DNA of 36,047 nucleotides from the IMG/VR virus record IMGVR_UViG_3300022690_001581, positions 1 to 36,047 of that record; one strand, 5' to 3'. The notes below the pieces were generated by a model. The model was not told where the DNA came from and did not search any database. It saw only the letters and a list, made by a program, of their open reading frames with translations. A program made the translations under genes and the position numbers. Positions 2,020-28,456 of this stretch are shown here, piece by piece. The stretch is from a virus. Numbering within the stretch: the first letter of the stretch is position 1; the number at the start of each line of letters is the position of its first letter.

Positions 2020-2277
2020 ATGTACAAATCATTGCAGCACAGACTACTTGCAAACTTACTTAAGTCTATTGATGAGACTAGTGAAATATTAAATGAGTTG
2101 CGAGAAATTGAGCGCAAGGCTGTGGTCGAGGGTGATGATGCTGCTTACACGTTCGGTGCAGACTTTGAGTCTATCGATCATGAAATATTACTCGGTATTA
2201 CTGCACGCATGGCCAAATCTCACCAACATGTATGTAATGGCTGTACAGGTCTTGAAAAGATCATAAAGCTTGATTAA
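2020..2277 (+). CDS. Hypothetical protein
   Basis: 85 residues. The N-terminal half is helical and acidic; the C-terminal part has CNGC (near residues 72-75), a single Cys pair. No family is recognised. A good ribosome binding site AAGGGG lies 8 bases before the ATG. The stop codon TAA is the first part of a conserved hairpin that separates this gene from the next. It is probably the first gene of a small plus-strand operon ending with the XRE-type repressor. Confidence 0.65.
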   Translation: MYKSLQHRLLANLLKSIDETSEILNELREIERKAVVEGDDAAYTFGADFESIDHEILLGITARMAKSHQHVCNGCTGLEKIIKLD

Positions 2278-2323
2278 GCCCTTGAGGCGAGTGCACTGCC
2301 GTGCGCTTGCTTGAACGACTTAA
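2274..2323 (+). repeat. Intergenic RNA hairpin, copy 1 of 2
   Basis: A 23-position stem (2274-2296 with 2301-2323) closes a 4-base loop (2297-2300, TGCC). Three positions do not pair (2279/2318, 2281/2316, 2284/2313) and three are G-U. Copy 2 at 2604-2653 is identical at 45 of 50 bases. Four of the five differences fall on loop or weak positions or are a paired swap: G2291-C2306 here is C-G in copy 2. The stem begins at the stop codon of the upstream gene and ends just before the AGGTGAG ribosome binding site of the downstream gene. It may be an RNA processing or stability signal; that is inference. Confidence 0.85.
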
Positions 2324-2337
2324 ACTAATGAGGTGAG

Positions 2338-2607
2338 ATGATGGCAAGGGTAACAGCTAAAAATGCAATGTTTGAAATTGGTGAAGACTATTATCAAATG
2401 ATGCGCGATGGAGTTCAGATCGGCGAGTATTTACATAGTGAAGGTTATAATCAATGTGATATTTGCAATATGTGGGACGGACAAGACCAATTTGCAACTA
2501 GCGGCGGCATCGAAGGTGAAGCGACGGTCTGTGAGCATTGTATCGAACATAGTAACCATAAAGACGTGATCGAAGCACGCGACGTTTTAAAACGTAACAA
2601 TTATTAA
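2338..2607 (+). CDS. Small Cys-pair (zinc-finger-like) protein
   Basis: 89 residues with CDIC (near residue 41) and CEHC (near residue 65), about 24 residues apart, a spacing compatible with a four-Cys zinc site. Between them lies MWDGQDQFATSGGIEGEATV, a likely beta hairpin. Function is unknown; such proteins often bind nucleic acid or other proteins. The start is ATGATG, so translation may begin at 2338 or 2341, with GAGGTGAG directly upstream. It lies between the two copies of the hairpin, and its stop codon is part of the second. Confidence 0.7.
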   Translation: MMARVTAKNAMFEIGEDYYQMMRDGVQIGEYLHSEGYNQCDICNMWDGQDQFATSGGIEGEATVCEHCIEHSNHKDVIEARDVLKRNNY

Positions 2608-2653
2608 GTCCTTGAGGCGACTGCACTGTCGTGCGGTTGCTTGAATGACTTAA
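2604..2653 (+). repeat. Intergenic RNA hairpin, copy 2 of 2
   Basis: The stem (2604-2626 with 2631-2653) closes the loop TGTC. Only 2611/2646 and 2614/2643 do not pair. The outer ends TTAAGTC and GACTTAA are perfectly complementary. Relative to copy 1, C2621-G2636 replaces G-C, a compensatory change, and T2609-A2648 restores a pair. As in copy 1, the hairpin starts at the upstream stop codon and is followed by GAGGT and an ATGATG start. There is no T-run after it, so it is not a standard terminator. Confidence 0.85.
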
Positions 2654-2663
2654 CTAGTGAGGT

Positions 2664-2810
2664 ATGATGACACAAAGACAACGCAGACAATTAACTGATA
2701 AATATCAACCAGACGCAGCCTTTAATGTTAGCCATTTTCTATTTATGATAATTGAAAGCGAGGGGATTATATTGTTAAACACGCAGAAGTACAGGGCTGT
2801 TCAAGAATAG
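2664..2810 (+). CDS. Small hypothetical protein (48 aa)
   Basis: A short open frame beginning MMTQRQRRQLTDKY with a basic N-terminus, then an amphipathic stretch NVSHFLFMIIESEGIILLN. It begins with ATGATG after GAGGT, exactly as the gene after hairpin copy 1 does, which is the main support for its reality. No family is recognised. Confidence 0.5.
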   Translation: MMTQRQRRQLTDKYQPDAAFNVSHFLFMIIESEGIILLNTQKYRAVQE

Positions 2811-2818
2811 TAACTAAT

Positions 2819-2911
2819 ATGACTTACCCTGAATCATCTTATGAAACAATATCAGGTGCTTGTTATGGTATCTGTTGTTTTGTGGATAGCATAGCGGCAA
2901 AAGGAAGGTAG
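2819..2911 (+). CDS. Possible very short ORF (30 aa)
   Basis: A 30-residue open frame, MTYPESSYETISGACYGICC, then FVDSIAAKGR. It fills the gap between two better-supported small genes and has the same direction. No ribosome binding site is visible before its ATG, so it may be chance. It carries three Cys. Confidence 0.25.
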   Translation: MTYPESSYETISGACYGICCFVDSIAAKGR

Positions 2912-2914
2912 TAG

Positions 2915-3088
2915 ATGAATTTAAAAATATGCTGCAATTGTGACAAAATGCTAACGACTAAAAGTGTGATTCGATTAGGCATCCAAAAATCGCGTGCCTC
3001 AAAGACAATGCTTTTACTTGTTAATTGTATTTGCGGTGGAACTAACGTTGTAGCAAAACGTCAAAATTTAACAAAAGGAATAAAATGA
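2915..3088 (+). CDS. Small zinc-ribbon-like protein
   Basis: 57 residues beginning MNLKICCNCDKML, with a second Cys knuckle NCICGGTNVV about 30 residues later. This is the layout of a zinc ribbon, similar in shape to Com-type translational regulators of Mu-like phages, though no direct relation is shown. AAGGAAGG lies 5 to 12 bases before the ATG. The stop overlaps the start of the XRE-type gene as ATGA, so the two are translationally coupled. Function is unknown. Confidence 0.6.
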   Translation: MNLKICCNCDKMLTTKSVIRLGIQKSRASKTMLLLVNCICGGTNVVAKRQNLTKGIK

Positions 3089-3336
3089 ATCAATTAGGAA
3101 AGTACTTAACTAAAATACGAAAATCTGCAGGACTTACTCAGAGGAAAATATCAGATGATGCCGAGTACACTACGCCTCAATATGTTTCAAATGTAGAGCG
3201 AGATCTTATCATGCCATCTGCTGATTACGTGGCAAGGCTTGCTAGAATGACTGGGCAAGACTACACATCAATTGTAAACAAAATGTTTGCGATTAAAAAA
3301 GAAGAGTTTTTGGCTGAAATTAAAAGGTGTAAATAA
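3085..3336 (+). CDS. XRE-family (Cro/CI-type) transcriptional regulator
   Basis: 83 residues with a helix-turn-helix typical of the XRE family: LGKYLTKIRKSAGLTQRKIS, then a recognition helix region TTPQYVSNVERD and MPSADYVARLARMTG. It lacks the C-terminal cleavage domain of CI repressors, so it is Cro-like in size. It probably binds operators in this phage; which ones cannot be told. It is the last gene of its operon, followed by a strong terminator at 3460-3486. The domain call is strong. Confidence 0.88.
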   Translation: MNQLGKYLTKIRKSAGLTQRKISDDAEYTTPQYVSNVERDLIMPSADYVARLARMTGQDYTSIVNKMFAIKKEEFLAEIKRCK

Positions 3337-3459: not shown

Positions 3460-3486
3460 AAAGGTCTCATATAGAGGCCTTTTTTA
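3460..3486 (+). terminator. Rho-independent terminator
   Basis: AAAGGTCTC pairs with GAGGCCTTT (one G-U) around a 5-base loop, followed by TTTTTA. It sits between the XRE-type gene and the convergent HNH gene, and can stop plus-strand transcription. On the minus strand only three T follow the stem, so it is weaker in that direction. Confidence 0.75.
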
Positions 3487-3831
3487 TTATCTTCTAGGCC
3501 CCTTGCCCCATCGCATATTCAAAGCAAAAGCAATGTTACGTAAATTATTTTCCTTTGTAGTAGTATTTTCTAGATTATCTCTTTGATTATTTAATCCATC
3601 CGAATCGCTATGCTCACAAATTAAATGATGAGGAGTATCCATAATTTGTCTATGCATTCTTATATTTTTCTTATATAGAATACCCTCAGATTTTTTACCC
3701 GTCCTGACAGTATAAGGTTTGTCACCATTGGCAGAGCCTATAGATACCCGCCATTTATACTGTATCAACCAATGAAAGTCCTCATCATCCACTTGTGCGT
3801 AGTAGCCTTTAGTTAGTTCAATGAGTTTCAT
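3487..3831 (-). CDS. HNH homing-endonuclease-like protein
   Basis: 114 residues. The N-terminus MKLIELTKGYYAQVDDEDFH with a Trp-rich continuation is the usual opening of phage HNH_3 proteins. The nuclease part carries an MHRQIM segment, then ICEHSDSDGLNNQRDNLENT and a final ENN, with the conserved His, Asp and Asn residues of the HNH beta-beta-alpha metal site. Such genes are often mobile and cut near their own site. It overlaps the upstream small gene by 4 bases and is the last gene of the primase transcript. It may be free-standing and selfish; a packaging role is less likely because it is far from the terminase. Confidence 0.8.
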   Translation of the reverse strand: MKLIELTKGYYAQVDDEDFHWLIQYKWRVSIGSANGDKPYTVRTGKKSEGILYKKNIRMHRQIMDTPHHLICEHSDSDGLNNQRDNLENTTTKENNLRNIAFALNMRWGKGPRR

Positions 3832-4068: not shown

Positions 4069-6543
4069 TCAGTACCTCAAGTTACTTGTGAAACCTTTAA
4101 ATACCTTTACACCATTATCTACTTTAGATTCATACCCTTTAGCCTCCAGCTTTCTATAAAATTGGGCTCTATTAAGCTTAAAATTTTTACCGCGTGCATC
4201 CTCTACCCATTGTTTAAAATGCTCAAAAAGCTCAGTAGCTTTTAACGAAGAATTTTCACAAAAGCTTACTAGAGCTTCATTGTCTTTTATATCTTTGATG
4301 AAACTTTCAAATAAATCATTTTCATTCTGCCAATCATTCAACATTTTTTTTCCACTATCTGGATTTGAAAAAATCCCTTTATATTTTTTGGCTAAATCAA
4401 ACAGTCCTTTGATTGCAAAATTTAAAACGCCTTGTGGGTTTTTATTAAAAATGTAATTGGCGTAATCTCTTCTGTACTCCCCTTTTACAACGACATTAAA
4501 TTTTATAATTGAGATACGCCTACTATGAGCCCCTGAACTTTCTAGAGTCTTTGGCAAGTCATTGCCACCAAACACATGTACAGGGGGCAAAGGGGCTAGT
4601 ATATCATCTTTATATTTCACTTTTATTCTTACAGGTTGACGGTCCTCAATTTGTTTTATGATATCATCATTGATAGCTGCCCGTATTTTAATGTCCATAA
4701 CAATATTAACAAGTTTGCCCACCATTGACGCCATATTGTATTCATCAAATTCAGTAGGTTGTACTCGTGATATATTTTGTTCAGATAAAAGATTGGTTAG
4801 AATTATTCCTACTGTGGACTTTCCTGTTTTAGGTTTTCCCTGCATAAAAAATATGTGAGGGAAAGCAGGCATGATACATGCGCCAAACATTTGAGCAAGC
4901 GCTAATATTTTTTCATCTTGGTCATCATCTTCAGCAAAAAGATTTTTTAGCATTTCTTCAAAGGCTACATTTTTATTTTCATAATCGTAATCATCACCAT
5001 AAGACTTGCAAAAATCTAGCTCTATACGATTAGTTATATAATCGCTTTTTGAATGGCACCTAAATTCAAATATAAAGCTGCCGTCATTTTCAGGTATTAG
5101 ATGCAAGGTGCCGTTTTTAAAATTTGCACAGTAAGGGTTAGAAGAAAAAAGGTCTATATTTTCGGGGGGCTCTGGTACCCAATTCATAAAACGTTTTAAT
5201 GTTTGGTCTATCTTATTAGTAGTGGCACGTTTGTTATATGATAAATCAATACGTTGCTTAAGCCTTGAAATTTGTGAAGTCTTGCAATGATTCCATTTTG
5301 CATTCTGGTAAAAAAATAATTCGTTGCCCTGCTTAATTATTTTTCCATCTGTGTTGTAAATATCCAGCTCTTTATTATATGTGCAAGCAAACACCTTAGT
5401 TAAAAGGCTATCAACTACATCCATTTCTTTTGGCTGCTTAGCCTTTTCATTTTCAGCCATCATTTTCTTAGGTGCATCAACTACGTTGGGTCTTTTTTCA
5501 GGCTTTAATTTTTCATACAATGGACAACGTCCAGAGCATAAATCAGATTTTAGAGGGTCTTGGCATCCATGGTTGTAGTATTTCTTGCCACTATAAACGT
5601 CGTTAATTATCCCCTGTATTTCTATCTGACCTTTTCCAGCTATAGCATTTTTATTAATCCATGAGGCTAAAGTAAGCTCTGCATCTGACTTATGCTTGCC
5701 TGTTTTAAAAAGGTCATTAACGATAATAACAGCAGTCGAGTTTCTTTGTCCTACCGGGCATCGCTCATTAAGCATTTTTTGGACGCATATCTTGCCGTCG
5801 AATATTTCAAATGGAGTAGGTTTATCACGAGTACCTGCATCTTGTACGTCAACCTCTGAGACTTGGCTTGTGGCTATCTCGTTCACTAACAAATCGTGAG
5901 GCTCAACCTCAGAGGTTTCTAGGATGCTTCCTTGAGGATGATGAGCCATAGCTTTTATGTCCTCAATGTAAAGCTTATGGTCTGTCAGCACTTTATAAAG
6001 ACTTGTTTTTGGATGCCTGGAATTTGGAACCCTAAATTTTCTATTGGCGTTATAGATAGAAGTATCAAGCGTAGGAAAATCTTTTTTAAGTCTATGAGCA
6101 AGCGAGCGTAGAATCTTTGTTAGTTTGCCATCTGCAGGTAGTCCGAAATATCCAAATGGCACATAGATATGAAAACCCTTAGAGCCTGAAAACCATAATT
6201 GATAATGCTTAAAGTCGAAGTAATCTAAAAACTTTCGGACATCATCTAGAGATTTTTGTAAATCATCTTCAGAATCAAAGTCGAACGGCACTAGCCCCTG
6301 ATGAGGATAGACGGGCCCTACATACTGTTCAAAAGTAGGTATCCCCCCAGACTCTTTAAGTATGTTATTGCCTTCAGCGTCCTTACCAACTACATGCTTT
6401 AACAAGTCTCTTTTACAGTCGAAAACACAGTAATATGCCTCATGGTGACAAGGCTTTTTGATGGTCTCTGCTATGGCTACAGCAGTGTCAAGACCTTCTG
6501 AATTCTTTGCGAATTTTGATGACACAAGAAAATTATAAAACAA
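4069..6543 (-). CDS. Primase-helicase: AEP-type primase fused to SF3 (D5/P4-like) helicase
   Basis: 824 residues. Residues about 35-200 look like an archaeo-eukaryotic primase: FDFDSEDD (87-94) supplies two metal-binding Asp, WFSGSKGFHIYVPF (117-130) the S-x-G-x-H motif, and RKFRVPNSRHPKT the later basic motif. A Cys cluster, GCQDPLKSDLCSGRC (326-340), resembles the PriCT-type linker. The C-terminal half has an SF3 ATPase with Walker A GKPKTGKST (569-577), a Walker B region near 612-620, and GGNDLPK with SRR (659-676) as sensor and arginine residues. It would synthesise primers and unwind the origin. The start is a TTG preceded by GAGGGG; no ATG fits near it. It is divergent from the replication operon, an unusual orientation. 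Confidence 0.88.
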   Translation of the reverse strand: MFYNFLVSSKFAKNSEGLDTAVAIAETIKKPCHHEAYYCVFDCKRDLLKHVVGKDAEGNNILKESGGIPTFEQYVGPVYPHQGLVPFDFDSEDDLQKSLDDVRKFLDYFDFKHYQLWFSGSKGFHIYVPFGYFGLPADGKLTKILRSLAHRLKKDFPTLDTSIYNANRKFRVPNSRHPKTSLYKVLTDHKLYIEDIKAMAHHPQGSILETSEVEPHDLLVNEIATSQVSEVDVQDAGTRDKPTPFEIFDGKICVQKMLNERCPVGQRNSTAVIIVNDLFKTGKHKSDAELTLASWINKNAIAGKGQIEIQGIINDVYSGKKYYNHGCQDPLKSDLCSGRCPLYEKLKPEKRPNVVDAPKKMMAENEKAKQPKEMDVVDSLLTKVFACTYNKELDIYNTDGKIIKQGNELFFYQNAKWNHCKTSQISRLKQRIDLSYNKRATTNKIDQTLKRFMNWVPEPPENIDLFSSNPYCANFKNGTLHLIPENDGSFIFEFRCHSKSDYITNRIELDFCKSYGDDYDYENKNVAFEEMLKNLFAEDDDQDEKILALAQMFGACIMPAFPHIFFMQGKPKTGKSTVGIILTNLLSEQNISRVQPTEFDEYNMASMVGKLVNIVMDIKIRAAINDDIIKQIEDRQPVRIKVKYKDDILAPLPPVHVFGGNDLPKTLESSGAHSRRISIIKFNVVVKGEYRRDYANYIFNKNPQGVLNFAIKGLFDLAKKYKGIFSNPDSGKKMLNDWQNENDLFESFIKDIKDNEALVSFCENSSLKATELFEHFKQWVEDARGKNFKLNRAQFYRKLEAKGYESKVDNGVKVFKGFTSNLRY
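6070..6118 (-). repeat. Inverted repeat with 7074-7122 (primase copy)
   Basis: A 49-base segment inside the primase gene, coding for the KILRSLAHRLKKDFP region. It is repeated in inverted orientation on the genome (same sense relative to coding) at the start of the plus-strand gene beginning at 7057, with 47 of 49 bases identical. The adjoining 21 bases at 6112-6132 also match 7123-7143 with three differences. Confidence 0.9.
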
Positions 6544-7056: not shown

Positions 7057-7437
7057 ATGTTTGATAAGTCTCTAAAGATTCTACGCTCGCTTGCTCATAG
7101 ATTTAAAAAAGACTTTCCTACGGATGACAAACTAACAAGGATTTCTGATGATCAGCTTAACAACTATCAACTACGTAAAGTTGCTGACTTTCTATTTGAT
7201 GGTGATCCATTAGTAGCACATTATATGCATCGAGTACGTCAATTTAAAGACGGCGATAGAATTTTACTGTGGTTTGTACGTGAAAATATCAAAGGTAAAA
7301 AACTTGTAGAGTTTTTTAAAAATGAATCCGATGGTTGTGAAGGTATGTCAATACTTAGGGGCGTTGAAACAGCAAGGCGTCTGATGTCCGGTAACGTTGA
7401 TAAACTTAGGGGCTCTGACTTAAAGGTGATCAAATGA
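7057..7437 (+). CDS. Hypothetical protein with an N-terminal segment copied from the primase gene
   Basis: 126 residues. Residues about 6-22, LKILRSLAHRFKKDFPT, equal primase residues 142-158 except for one residue (F for L at SLAHRF/SLAHRL). The rest (ISDDQLNNYQLRKVADFLFD onward) is unrelated to the primase and not recognised. The DNA shows why: 49 bases match the primase gene at 47 positions. The original start of this gene was probably replaced. AAAGG lies 7 bases before the ATG, so it is likely expressed. The stop overlaps the next start as ATGA. Confidence 0.65.
   Translation: MFDKSLKILRSLAHRFKKDFPTDDKLTRISDDQLNNYQLRKVADFLFDGDPLVAHYMHRVRQFKDGDRILLWFVRENIKGKKLVEFFKNESDGCEGMSILRGVETARRLMSGNVDKLRGSDLKVIK
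7074..7122 (+). repeat. Inverted repeat with 6070-6118
   Basis: The second copy of the primase segment, located within codons 6-22 of the gene at 7057. The two mismatches are both C/T changes. The bases that follow (7123-7143) resemble the stretch lying just upstream of the segment in the primase gene, so a short homology may have guided the rearrangement. Confidence 0.9.
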
Positions 7438-10764: not shown

Positions 10765-11693
10765 CAAAGAAAAAAGTAACAAAAAAAACACCAAGTAAAA
10801 AGGCTGCAGCAAGTATAGACAAAACCCCTGCAGTACCTGAACATGCTGCGTCTGTAGCGGTAGTAAAAAATGAGGGGACTACACTTGTAGTAAAGCCTGC
10901 TTCAGAGCTACCTGCAATTCCTAGAAGGGCTCTGGGCGCAGCCGAATGTATGGACGCACGGGACGTTGCAATACCAACGGTTATTTTAATGCAAGCCAAG
11001 TCAACTTTTGTAGAAGATGAAAGCAGTGATATTAAGATAGGTGACTTTGTCCACTCAATGACTGAAGAGGTATTAGGGCACAAAGATAAAAAACCTTTGA
11101 AGTTTGTATCTTGTTACATGTTTAAAACCTACCAAATATTTCATGGCGAAGGTGACAATGCGAAGTACATCAATACTGAGGCTTGGACTCCTGCAAGATC
11201 CCTAGATGAATACCAATCAATAGTCCAAGTTGATGGCAAAGATGTAATGGAAACTAGAAAGCTTGTCTATAATCATTGCGGCTATCTGCCCGACCATACT
11301 CGTCAAGTAGGTGAACGTGTTGCTGCAAGTCCTGTAATTGTTAAATTCAAAGGTCTGTCTAAGAAGCATTGTAAAAAACAAATCAATTCATACATCACAG
11401 ACTTGTCTGACTTTAATCAGGCATCATGGCAGTATGAATTTATACTAACGTCTAAGATTGAGGATACTGCAGAATACGGTAAGTACCAAGTCTGGCAGTC
11501 AGCATTAGGTGACAAAGTGTCTAAGAAACTAGACGACTTTGGTTACATCTTATACCAACGATTTAAAAGCCTTCAAGACGCTGGAAAATTAGAGGCGTCA
11601 GATAAAGAGGACCATACACCTGATGTCCAAAGTGAAGAAAAGCAAATTAACGAAAAAGAAATCCCTGCAGAAGCTAAAAAAGTTTCCTTCTAA
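10761..11693 (+). CDS. Phage replication-module protein of unknown function
   Basis: 310 residues. The first 60 are Lys/Ala-rich and low-complexity (MTKKKVTKKTPSKKAAAS). A compact core from about residue 65 follows, beginning DARDVAIPTVILMQAKSTFV and then GDFVHSMTEEVLGHKDKKPL. The C-terminal 30 residues are acidic and basic by turns. Proteins of this shape occur beside phage polymerases, but I do not recognise a characterised family. A single-stranded DNA binding or recombination accessory role is possible and unproven. The gene overlaps the following one by 71 bases. Confidence 0.7.
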   Translation: MTKKKVTKKTPSKKAAASIDKTPAVPEHAASVAVVKNEGTTLVVKPASELPAIPRRALGAAECMDARDVAIPTVILMQAKSTFVEDESSDIKIGDFVHSMTEEVLGHKDKKPLKFVSCYMFKTYQIFHGEGDNAKYINTEAWTPARSLDEYQSIVQVDGKDVMETRKLVYNHCGYLPDHTRQVGERVAASPVIVKFKGLSKKHCKKQINSYITDLSDFNQASWQYEFILTSKIEDTAEYGKYQVWQSALGDKVSKKLDDFGYILYQRFKSLQDAGKLEASDKEDHTPDVQSEEKQINEKEIPAEAKKVSF

Positions 11694-11841
11694 AGTTGGG
11701 TTTACTTTTAAGACTAAGCAAGAAAACATTGAGCGCCTTAAAACTGAGGCGCTCAAAATTAACCTTACAGCCAGTAGACTTATAGAATTAGCACTTGATG
11801 AATTCTATAAGTCTGATAAGAAACAGTTGACGTTAGTATGA
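11623..11841 (+). CDS. Small basic protein, ribbon-helix-helix-like C-terminus
   Basis: 72 residues. The first 25 are Lys-rich; the remainder, VGFTFKTKQENIERLKTEAL and then TASRLIELALDEFY, has the strand-helix-helix layout of ribbon-helix-helix proteins. It probably binds DNA. The start lies inside the upstream gene (71-base overlap), with AGAGG about 11 bases upstream; no internal ATG would shorten it. The stop overlaps the polymerase start as ATGA. Confidence 0.6.
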   Translation: MSKVKKSKLTKKKSLQKLKKFPSKVGFTFKTKQENIERLKTEALKINLTASRLIELALDEFYKSDKKQLTLV

Positions 11842-14119: not shown

Positions 14120-14254
14120 ATGGGAAATAAATTTTGTAGAACATGTAAGCAAATAACTTTATGGATAATGCCTGATCTTACACCTACTTGTACAAGATGT
14201 AAAAAGACAGGTCGAGAAGATCGAGTAAAACGTTGTAAGGTACCTATGAAATGA
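14120..14254 (+). CDS. Small zinc-ribbon-like protein (44 aa)
   Basis: A 44-residue frame, MGNKFCRTCKQITLW, with a second pair TCTRCKKTG 18 residues later, a typical four-Cys zinc ribbon. The stop overlaps the nuclease start as ATGA, strong support for translation. A DNA-binding or regulatory role is possible. Confidence 0.6.
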   Translation: MGNKFCRTCKQITLWIMPDLTPTCTRCKKTGREDRVKRCKVPMK

Positions 14255-14559
14255 GTAAACCCCTAGAAGCTGCATTAACTAAAAAATGTAAGAATTATTT
14301 TGAGGCCCTTCGTTTAAAACACAAGGGCTTTAAATATCACAAATTATCCGATAGGTTTACCAGTGCCATATTAGATTTTTATATTTGTTATGAGGGAAGA
14401 TCGGTTTGGATAGAACTTAAAAAGGCCAGTGGTAAACCAAGGCCCCTACAATCTGATGAAATAAGGACATTAAGGCGTGCAGGTATAGGAGCCTTTTGGT
14501 CTGATGATTTACAAGACGTGATTGACTACATTGAAAAATATATCCTTAAATTATCTTAA
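14251..14559 (+). CDS. VRR-NUC domain nuclease
   Basis: 102 residues, the usual length of a stand-alone phage VRR-NUC protein. Residues KYHKLSDRFTSAILDFYI hold D42, GRSVWIELKKASGK holds E55 and K57, and PLQ holds Q67, the PD-(D/E)xK pattern of this family. The usual G-x-PD is changed to AILD, with the Asp kept. Such nucleases resolve or cleave branched DNA, perhaps in replication or packaging. It is the last plus-strand gene of the replication operon and overlaps the convergent M15 gene by 14 bases. Confidence 0.88.
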   Translation: MSKPLEAALTKKCKNYFEALRLKHKGFKYHKLSDRFTSAILDFYICYEGRSVWIELKKASGKPRPLQSDEIRTLRRAGIGAFWSDDLQDVIDYIEKYILKLS

Positions 14560-27345: not shown

Positions 27346-27947
27346 TATATAACTCTCCAATATTTAATAGCAGATCTAATAAAATCAATTTGTGTTAGGT
27401 TATCATTTATACGGTAAATAATATTATCGTTATTATCCCCTATTAATTCTATTTCTGGATTAATTTTATATTCCCCTGCAAATAAGTTATCATCATCAAT
27501 AAATTGTTTACTAGACCCCAATACAGTAGCAGTAAATAAAAACGCTATGCCCATATTTGATTTAAAATTTGCAATAATATGCTCTACAGAATTAAGGGTG
27601 ATAATTAAATCTATACCATTAACAAGTTCTGGTCCATTTCCAAAATCTACTCTGCTAGCTGTTCCACCATCTTGTATACCTAAACCAAAAGAATATAGAT
27701 TCCACTTTTCCCCTTGCGGTACGGAAGCAATAAAATCAATGGGCGCAGCAGAACCATCAACGTTCATATCAGTACTACCCGCATCATCAGGTAAAACTAT
27801 ACTATGTGTTTTAGGCCCAGCATTTAATCGCCCATTAGCAATAACTGTATTTTGGGCAAGTTGATTAGATCTAGACCTATCACTTTCATTTATTACACCT
27901 TGCGTGTCAAAATGCGTATATAATCTAGACTCATCAGTTAAACCCAT
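27345..27947 (-). CDS. Virion structural protein, unknown
   Basis: 200 residues. MGLTDESRLYTHFDTQGVIN, then beta-rich NLYSFGLGIQDGGTASRVDF and INPEIELIGDNNDN. It lies next to a similar-sized beta-rich protein; together they may form head or neck appendages. No motif gives a function. It overlaps its neighbours by one base. Confidence 0.65.
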   Translation of the reverse strand: MGLTDESRLYTHFDTQGVINESDRSRSNQLAQNTVIANGRLNAGPKTHSIVLPDDAGSTDMNVDGSAAPIDFIASVPQGEKWNLYSFGLGIQDGGTASRVDFGNGPELVNGIDLIITLNSVEHIIANFKSNMGIAFLFTATVLGSSKQFIDDDNLFAGEYKINPEIELIGDNNDNIIYRINDNLTQIDFIRSAIKYWRVI

Positions 27948-28456
27948 TACTTACCCTCTAAAAACTTTTCGCGTTTTTCAAGATCATTGCTCATTTCTTC
28001 TAAAGATTCTGCAAGCTCATCAAGTTCAGTTTCTCGTGCAGCTCTGTTACCTTCAAGCTCATCAAGTTCAGTTTCTCGTGCAGATATGTTACCTTCACGC
28101 TCTTTAAGTTCTTCATGCTTAAACTCAATAAACTCCAAAGACTCTTTTACTTGGGCCTCTGTTTCTGCAAGTCTTTTAACCTGCAGCTCTGTTTTTTTCT
28201 CATCCACTACAGACATCCTTACTTTTTTGCCGTCTGTATATGCGCCTACTTCTAAATCTTCAATGTTTTTGACCTTTATAATTTCCATATAATGATTAAA
28301 CTGTATAGATTTAAGAAATCCACCTTTTTTAAATTCAGTTTCTTCATATTCAAAAACCTTGGGACGCATTTCAATTTTATTCATTCCAAGATGCATACCG
28401 CGTTTACGAATTTTTGCTGCAATACTGTCTTTAATTTTAAGCACTACTTTTTTCAT
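27947..28456 (-). CDS. Coiled-coil protein with two-heptad repeats
   Basis: 169 residues. Residues 1-85 are basic and beta-like; residues about 90-165 are one long Glu-rich coiled coil. Within it, SARETELDELEGN is repeated as AARETELDELAES, encoded by a tandem 42-base repeat (28012-28095). It sits just after the capsid gene. It could be a head fibre, scaffold-like or assembly factor. Function is not known. Confidence 0.65.
   Translation of the reverse strand: MKKVVLKIKDSIAAKIRKRGMHLGMNKIEMRPKVFEYEETEFKKGGFLKSIQFNHYMEIIKVKNIEDLEVGAYTDGKKVRMSVVDEKKTELQVKRLAETEAQVKESLEFIEFKHEELKEREGNISARETELDELEGNRAARETELDELAESLEEMSNDLEKREKFLEGK
28012..28095 (-). repeat. Tandem 42-base repeat (two units)
   Basis: Units at 28012-28053 and 28054-28095 agree at 40 of 42 bases. 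Each encodes 14 residues, that is two heptads, so copy number changes would keep both reading frame and coiled-coil register. Confidence 0.9.

Follow-up and report, generated by a model that had tools for sequence, protein, structure and literature searches.

Two closely similar hairpins lie in adjacent gaps of a cluster of small genes at 2020-3336 (+) in IMG/VR virus record IMGVR_UViG_3300022690_001581. The record was analysed as a single window of 36,047 bases. The cluster was delimited from its open reading frames (ORFs) and from helix-turn-helix (HTH) PHROG matches. Its genes may form one operon, and a terminator-like hairpin downstream is the probable operon end. The genes of the cluster, the repeat units defined by local alignment of the copies, and the ribosome-binding sites (RBS) read from the sequence are as follows:

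2020-2277 (+), gene upstream of hairpin copy 1
2338-2607 (+), gene between the two hairpins
2664-2810 (+), gene downstream of hairpin copy 2
2915-3088 (+), gene of the cluster
3085-3336 (+), gene of the cluster, HTH regulator
2273-2341 (+), repeat unit copy 1: stop codon, hairpin, RBS, start codon
2603-2671 (+), repeat unit copy 2: stop codon, hairpin, RBS, start codon
2274-2323 (+), hairpin copy 1, 20 of 21 pairs formed, C.A at 2279/2318
2604-2653 (+), hairpin copy 2, 21 of 21 pairs formed
2330-2334 (+), RBS 1, GAGGT, ahead of ATGATG at 2338-2343
2659-2663 (+), RBS 2, GAGGT, ahead of ATGATG at 2664-2669
3460-3490 (+), terminator-like hairpin with T-run

The duplicated joint

The direct repeat (2273-2323 and 2603-2653) has a spacing of 330 and an identity of 90%. 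The hairpin copies agree at 45 of 50 bases, as counted in a first-pass annotation made from the sequence alone. That annotation had also placed a TAA at the start of each hairpin and GAGGT with ATGATG after it, which the sequence bears out for both copies; the TAA lies within the stem base (2275-2277 in copy 1, 2605-2607 in copy 2). The homology runs from the stop codon through the hairpin and CTARTGAGGT to ATGATG, and then ends, spanning ~69 bp. The leader between hairpin and start, CTARTGAGGT(GAG)ATGATG, contains indels, and the hairpin is better kept than this adjoining segment. The gaps holding the hairpins are 60 and 56 nt long, and the 3′ end of the hairpin lies 14 nt (copy 1) and 10 nt (copy 2) from the next start codon. 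A search with the 18-base core, allowing up to three mismatches, returned two matches in the window against 0.01 expected. No third or diverged copy was found in the window, the next match (11728-11757) being a short hairpin without real sequence likeness.

The proteins flanking the copies were unrelated to each other by blastp. As the neighbouring genes are not paralogous, whole-gene tandem duplication was ruled out, and it was the hairpin-RBS unit, not a gene, that was copied. The 69-bp joint of stop codon, hairpin, RBS and start codon was thus copied without the genes; of the gene-hairpin-RBS unit proposed in the first pass, everything except the gene is retained. Protein coding through the hairpin past the stop was also rejected: four of the five changed codons would encode different residues in the two copies, with no sign of protein-level selection.

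Fold, strand bias and differences between the copies

Each stem has 23 positions, as first described, comprising 21 pair positions and two conserved 1x1 mismatches in the order 7 bp, mismatch, 2 bp, mismatch, 12 bp and tetraloop UGYC. The folding energy was −23.0 kcal/mol for copy 1 and −27.8 kcal/mol for copy 2 (z of −5.42 and −6.92, respectively), and no shuffle was equally good. Few local hairpins in the window are as strong as these two, whose gaps have the lowest per-base folding energy of all codirectional gaps. In a 1.5-kb transcript context both hairpins formed, with a mean pair probability of 0.85 for copy 1 and 0.95 for copy 2. Cross-pairing of the two copies was discounted (probability about 1e-14). 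There was no T-run or terminator-like site at either hairpin, so that an intrinsic terminator was ruled out, in agreement with the first reading.

The antisense folds were weaker (−15.8 and −17.5 kcal/mol), and the covariance model scored 82 bits on the sense strand versus 35 on the antisense strand. Three stem pairs common to both copies read G-U in the sense orientation but A.C, a mismatch, in the antisense one, and both copies are oriented as the genes. The modelled strand bias favours action at the RNA level and is better evidence for RNA than the covariation. The structure had been annotated as functional RNA or single-stranded DNA. The sense-strand bias and the position between stop codon and RBS support the former, and single-stranded DNA is disfavoured because the three sense G-U pairs become A.C on the other strand.

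Five differences separate the copies. Two of them form a swap at stem positions 18/33, where G-C at 2291/2306 in copy 1 is C-G at 2621/2636 in copy 2; one (position 26) is in the loop; one (position 43) lies opposite an existing mismatch; and one (position 6; 2279 C vs 2609 T) leaves copy 1 with C.A where copy 2 has a U-A pair. The swap reported in the first pass is therefore real, but the accompanying statement that the other differences lie in loop or weak positions was mistaken, as position 6 is neither. In a null simulation with five random changes, at least one compensated pair arose with P of about 0.07-0.08. When pair retention at least as high as that observed was included, P was 0.019-0.038 with copy 2 as the start and 0.0004-0.002 with copy 1. 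A pair-counting tool applied to the two sequences did not separate one swap from chance (253/500 shuffles). The covariation is thus suggestive of RNA pairing, not proof of it. The idea that pairing was preserved despite sequence change holds for this one swap, and is tempered by its being a single event (P about 0.07) accompanied by one broken pair.

Possible processing by ribonuclease III and the alternatives

With confidence about evenly balanced, we read the element as a duplicated intercistronic RNA hairpin that is most likely a processing joint of the ribonuclease III (RNase III) type. By analogy with phage T7, RNase III cleavage is the leading candidate mechanism for the hairpins. The element would be of a kind already known, with a new sequence and no known relatives. 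In the mRNA, each copy would fold into a ~21-bp hairpin reaching from the upstream stop codon to 10-14 nt short of the next start. As in T7, host RNase III would be expected to cut low in the 3′ arm, close to the weak CUUG/GAAU segment. Such a cut would give the downstream message a short 5′ leader of its own and leave a 3′ stem on the upstream message, and each cistron might then be translated and decay separately.

For comparison, gaps of the T7 record were folded with the same script as the two copies. The T7 record carries no annotation of RNase III sites, and the gaps used were those taken to hold them. They folded into 18-25 bp versus 20-21 bp here (about two helical turns). Relative to the stop codon, R0.5, R6.5 and R18.5 start where the two copies do; R0.3 and R1.3 leave 9-13 nt between hairpin and start codon, versus 14 and 10 nt here. 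Six T7 RNase III sites had the same sense-strand bias, and in T7, too, the sites form a family of diverged repeats. The present hairpins thus resemble them as long non-terminator hairpins in codirectional gaps upstream of the next RBS, belonging to a repeat family in one genome and biased to the sense strand; several T7 sites also start in the stop codon. The likeness to T7 sites first suggested from the sequence is accordingly supported by strand bias, by the stop-RBS position and by similar geometry in the same script. At T7 R1.1, a model substrate, RNase III cuts one phosphodiester (PMC4858673). The differences from T7 are the lack of sequence homology, the presence of two copies versus about ten in T7, and the Mu-gpT-type, siphovirus-like character of the present phage.

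Several results weigh against processing. The asymmetric internal loop usual in T7 sites, which is not required of RNase III substrates generally, has no counterpart in the two hairpins; they have two symmetric 1x1 mismatches flanking 2 bp. Hairpins of at least 17 bp were present, by a loose definition, in 59 of 282 codirectional gaps from ~90 phage loci, and therefore strong intergenic hairpin geometry alone does not imply processing. Two near-identical hairpins in adjacent gaps appear more unusual than one strong hairpin. Only two copies were found, with no homologues in the collections searched.

Translational coupling or insulation without cleavage is possible, if rather unlikely. The hairpin would either block the sliding of terminating ribosomes or bridge an anti-RBS to the next RBS; in the bridge form, the next gene would be translated only during translation of the upstream gene. 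Candidate anti-RBS segments are:

2212-2224 (+), possible anti-RBS 1, end of gene 2020-2277; predicted to pair with 2332-2345, pair probability 0.92-0.98
2536-2551 (+), possible anti-RBS 2, end of gene 2338-2607; predicted to pair with 2655-2669, weaker than copy 1

Both RBSs are predicted to pair with the 3′ end of the gene before them, which suggests translational coupling; the pairing is clear only in copy 1. The duplex of copy 1 (−20.6 kcal/mol) was better than 99.5% of synonymous recodings (P = 0.005), and the intergenic distance is short. However, the pairing of copy 2 was not significant (synonymous-shuffle P = 0.12), the pairing of both copies was noticed after the fact, folds of long mRNAs are unreliable, and a further point against coupling is that the RBSs were largely freer when the end of the upstream gene was left out of the fold. 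As a lead from these models, cleavage of the hairpin would part RBS from anti-RBS and might serve as a coupling switch. A combined reading, which we consider highly doubtful, is that a portable stop-hairpin-RBS-start joint was copied before new genes, its hairpin bridging RBS and anti-RBS until an RNase III cut irreversibly frees the RBS; the cut would turn coupled translation into independent translation. In the phage lambda N leader, an RNase III hairpin lies between a control segment and the RBS, and cleavage separates repression from the RBS. That hairpin is not intercistronic, and no nut site or N homologue was identified in the present phage.

A DNA-level element, whether an operator, a recombination or replication site, or a small mobile repeat with arms acting as duplex DNA, is distinctly unlikely. 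It would account for the perfect 7-bp outer arms of copy 2 (TTAAGTC/GACTTAA), and the sharing of nothing but a 69-bp unit, between unrelated flanking genes, is reminiscent of a mobile or recombination joint. Among described repeats, the closest in placement is the ESAS/SAS of cluster K mycobacteriophages (PMC3203893), in which an inverted-repeat unit also immediately precedes an RBS-bearing repeat and the start codon of unrelated small non-structural genes. Changes in the ESAS arms do not support RNA pairing, and its authors favoured DNA-binding sites (PMC3203893); in the present hairpins, unlike the ESAS arms, pairing is almost fully kept. The ESAS arms are 17 bp, imperfect and separated by a variable spacer (PMC3203893), whereas the present stem has 23 positions, 20-21 pairs and one compensated change. 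The 13-bp SAS at the start codon, GGGATAGGAGCCC, is absent here, its place being taken by the leader given above. As late as 2025, experiments were still said to be needed to verify the role of ESAS/SAS (PMC12699233). The strand-biased G-U pairs and the fixed orientation and stop/RBS register argue against a DNA element, as does the absence of any other copy from the phage, plasmid and genome collections, where a spreading mobile repeat would be expected to recur; no target duplication was seen either.

That a leader segment with a chance hairpin was recently duplicated by neutral processes, the second copy having no selected function, appears as improbable as a DNA element or slightly more so. 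The copies have five differences only, one of them breaking a pair, and the compensated pair alone has a P of about 0.07. Neutrality is nevertheless at odds with the better preservation of the hairpin (45/50) than of the adjoining leader with its indels, and with the P of 0.0004-0.04, depending on ancestor and mutation model, for pair retention with compensation.

Processing of the hairpins would mean that an orphan siphovirus-like phage had independently reached the T7 arrangement, in which polycistronic mRNA is cut at repeated joints, and had duplicated the joint, not the gene; joints of this type would then look like portable regulatory parts. Without processing, the two hairpins would be one more case of the strong intergenic hairpin, a kind frequent in phages.

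Phage setting, searches for relatives and other repeats

The genes of the window include a Mu-gpT-like major head protein, portal, terminase, tape measure, primase, SNF2-type helicase and DNA polymerase. The phage, of Mu-gpT-type, siphovirus-like character, is an orphan. The best protein relatives of the terminase, polymerase and helicase, the three genes searched, were ~30% identical. The IMG/VR contig G001 (L091-L093) was closer, with amino-acid identities given as 37-51% or, over the common genes, roughly 30-51%; the polymerase search led to relative L008/G001 (37%), and the terminase search to G001 and L098. The genes flanking the hairpins returned no relatives when used as queries, and the hairpin region had no DNA match among phage records.

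No match to the window reached the gathering score in Rfam, the only weak match being a plant miRNA model (18.5 vs 90 bits). Three exact patterns, which would miss diverged copies, found no homologue of the element in IMG/VR. Blastn against phage and plasmid records found none either (sole plasmid match, E = 6), and one pattern run against GTDB genomes hit only L097, in a match that lacks the outer stem and was taken as chance. A covariance model run over 1.42 Mb of loci recovered the two copies and, beyond them, nothing but a chance match of 13.7 bits in L031. In the nearest relative, G001, the hairpin is missing, and primase and terminase lie only some 0.9 kb apart, so that it does not share the operon; no such operon was seen in L098. 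The first-pass annotation had proposed a covariance search of relatives, and one half of what it named as refuting its idea, a lack of further copies and covariation, was indeed found. With no close relative in the collections, this absence says little, and the missing covariation is uninformative, not negative.

In the nearest relative, L008, the block AAGGAAGTAAACCATGG occurs at 1018-1037 and 1241-1258, before successive start codons, as a start-associated repeat without a hairpin. In the window, a 144-nt gap ahead of the polymerase gene (11694-11837) contains two successive strong hairpins, a perfect 12-bp stem at 11729-11756 and a 15-bp stem near 11780-11818, neither with a T-run after it. 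An ORF at 11623-11841 overlaps this gap, which may be coding.

A 54-nt stretch of the primase gene (−), at 6065-6118, recurs inverted at 7074-7127 (93% complementary), at the start of ORF 7057-7437 (+). Over this segment 17 of 21 residues agree (KILRSLAHRxKKDFPT), and it looks like a short coding stretch copied or shared between two unrelated genes. The 102-residue ORF 14251-14559 had a sub-threshold Pfam match to Ntox33 (E = 8.8e-05, 23.4 vs 28.4 bits). Two tandem 42-nt copies, 93% identical, lie at 28009-28092 in ORF 27947-28456 (−) and encode an in-frame 14-residue repeat.
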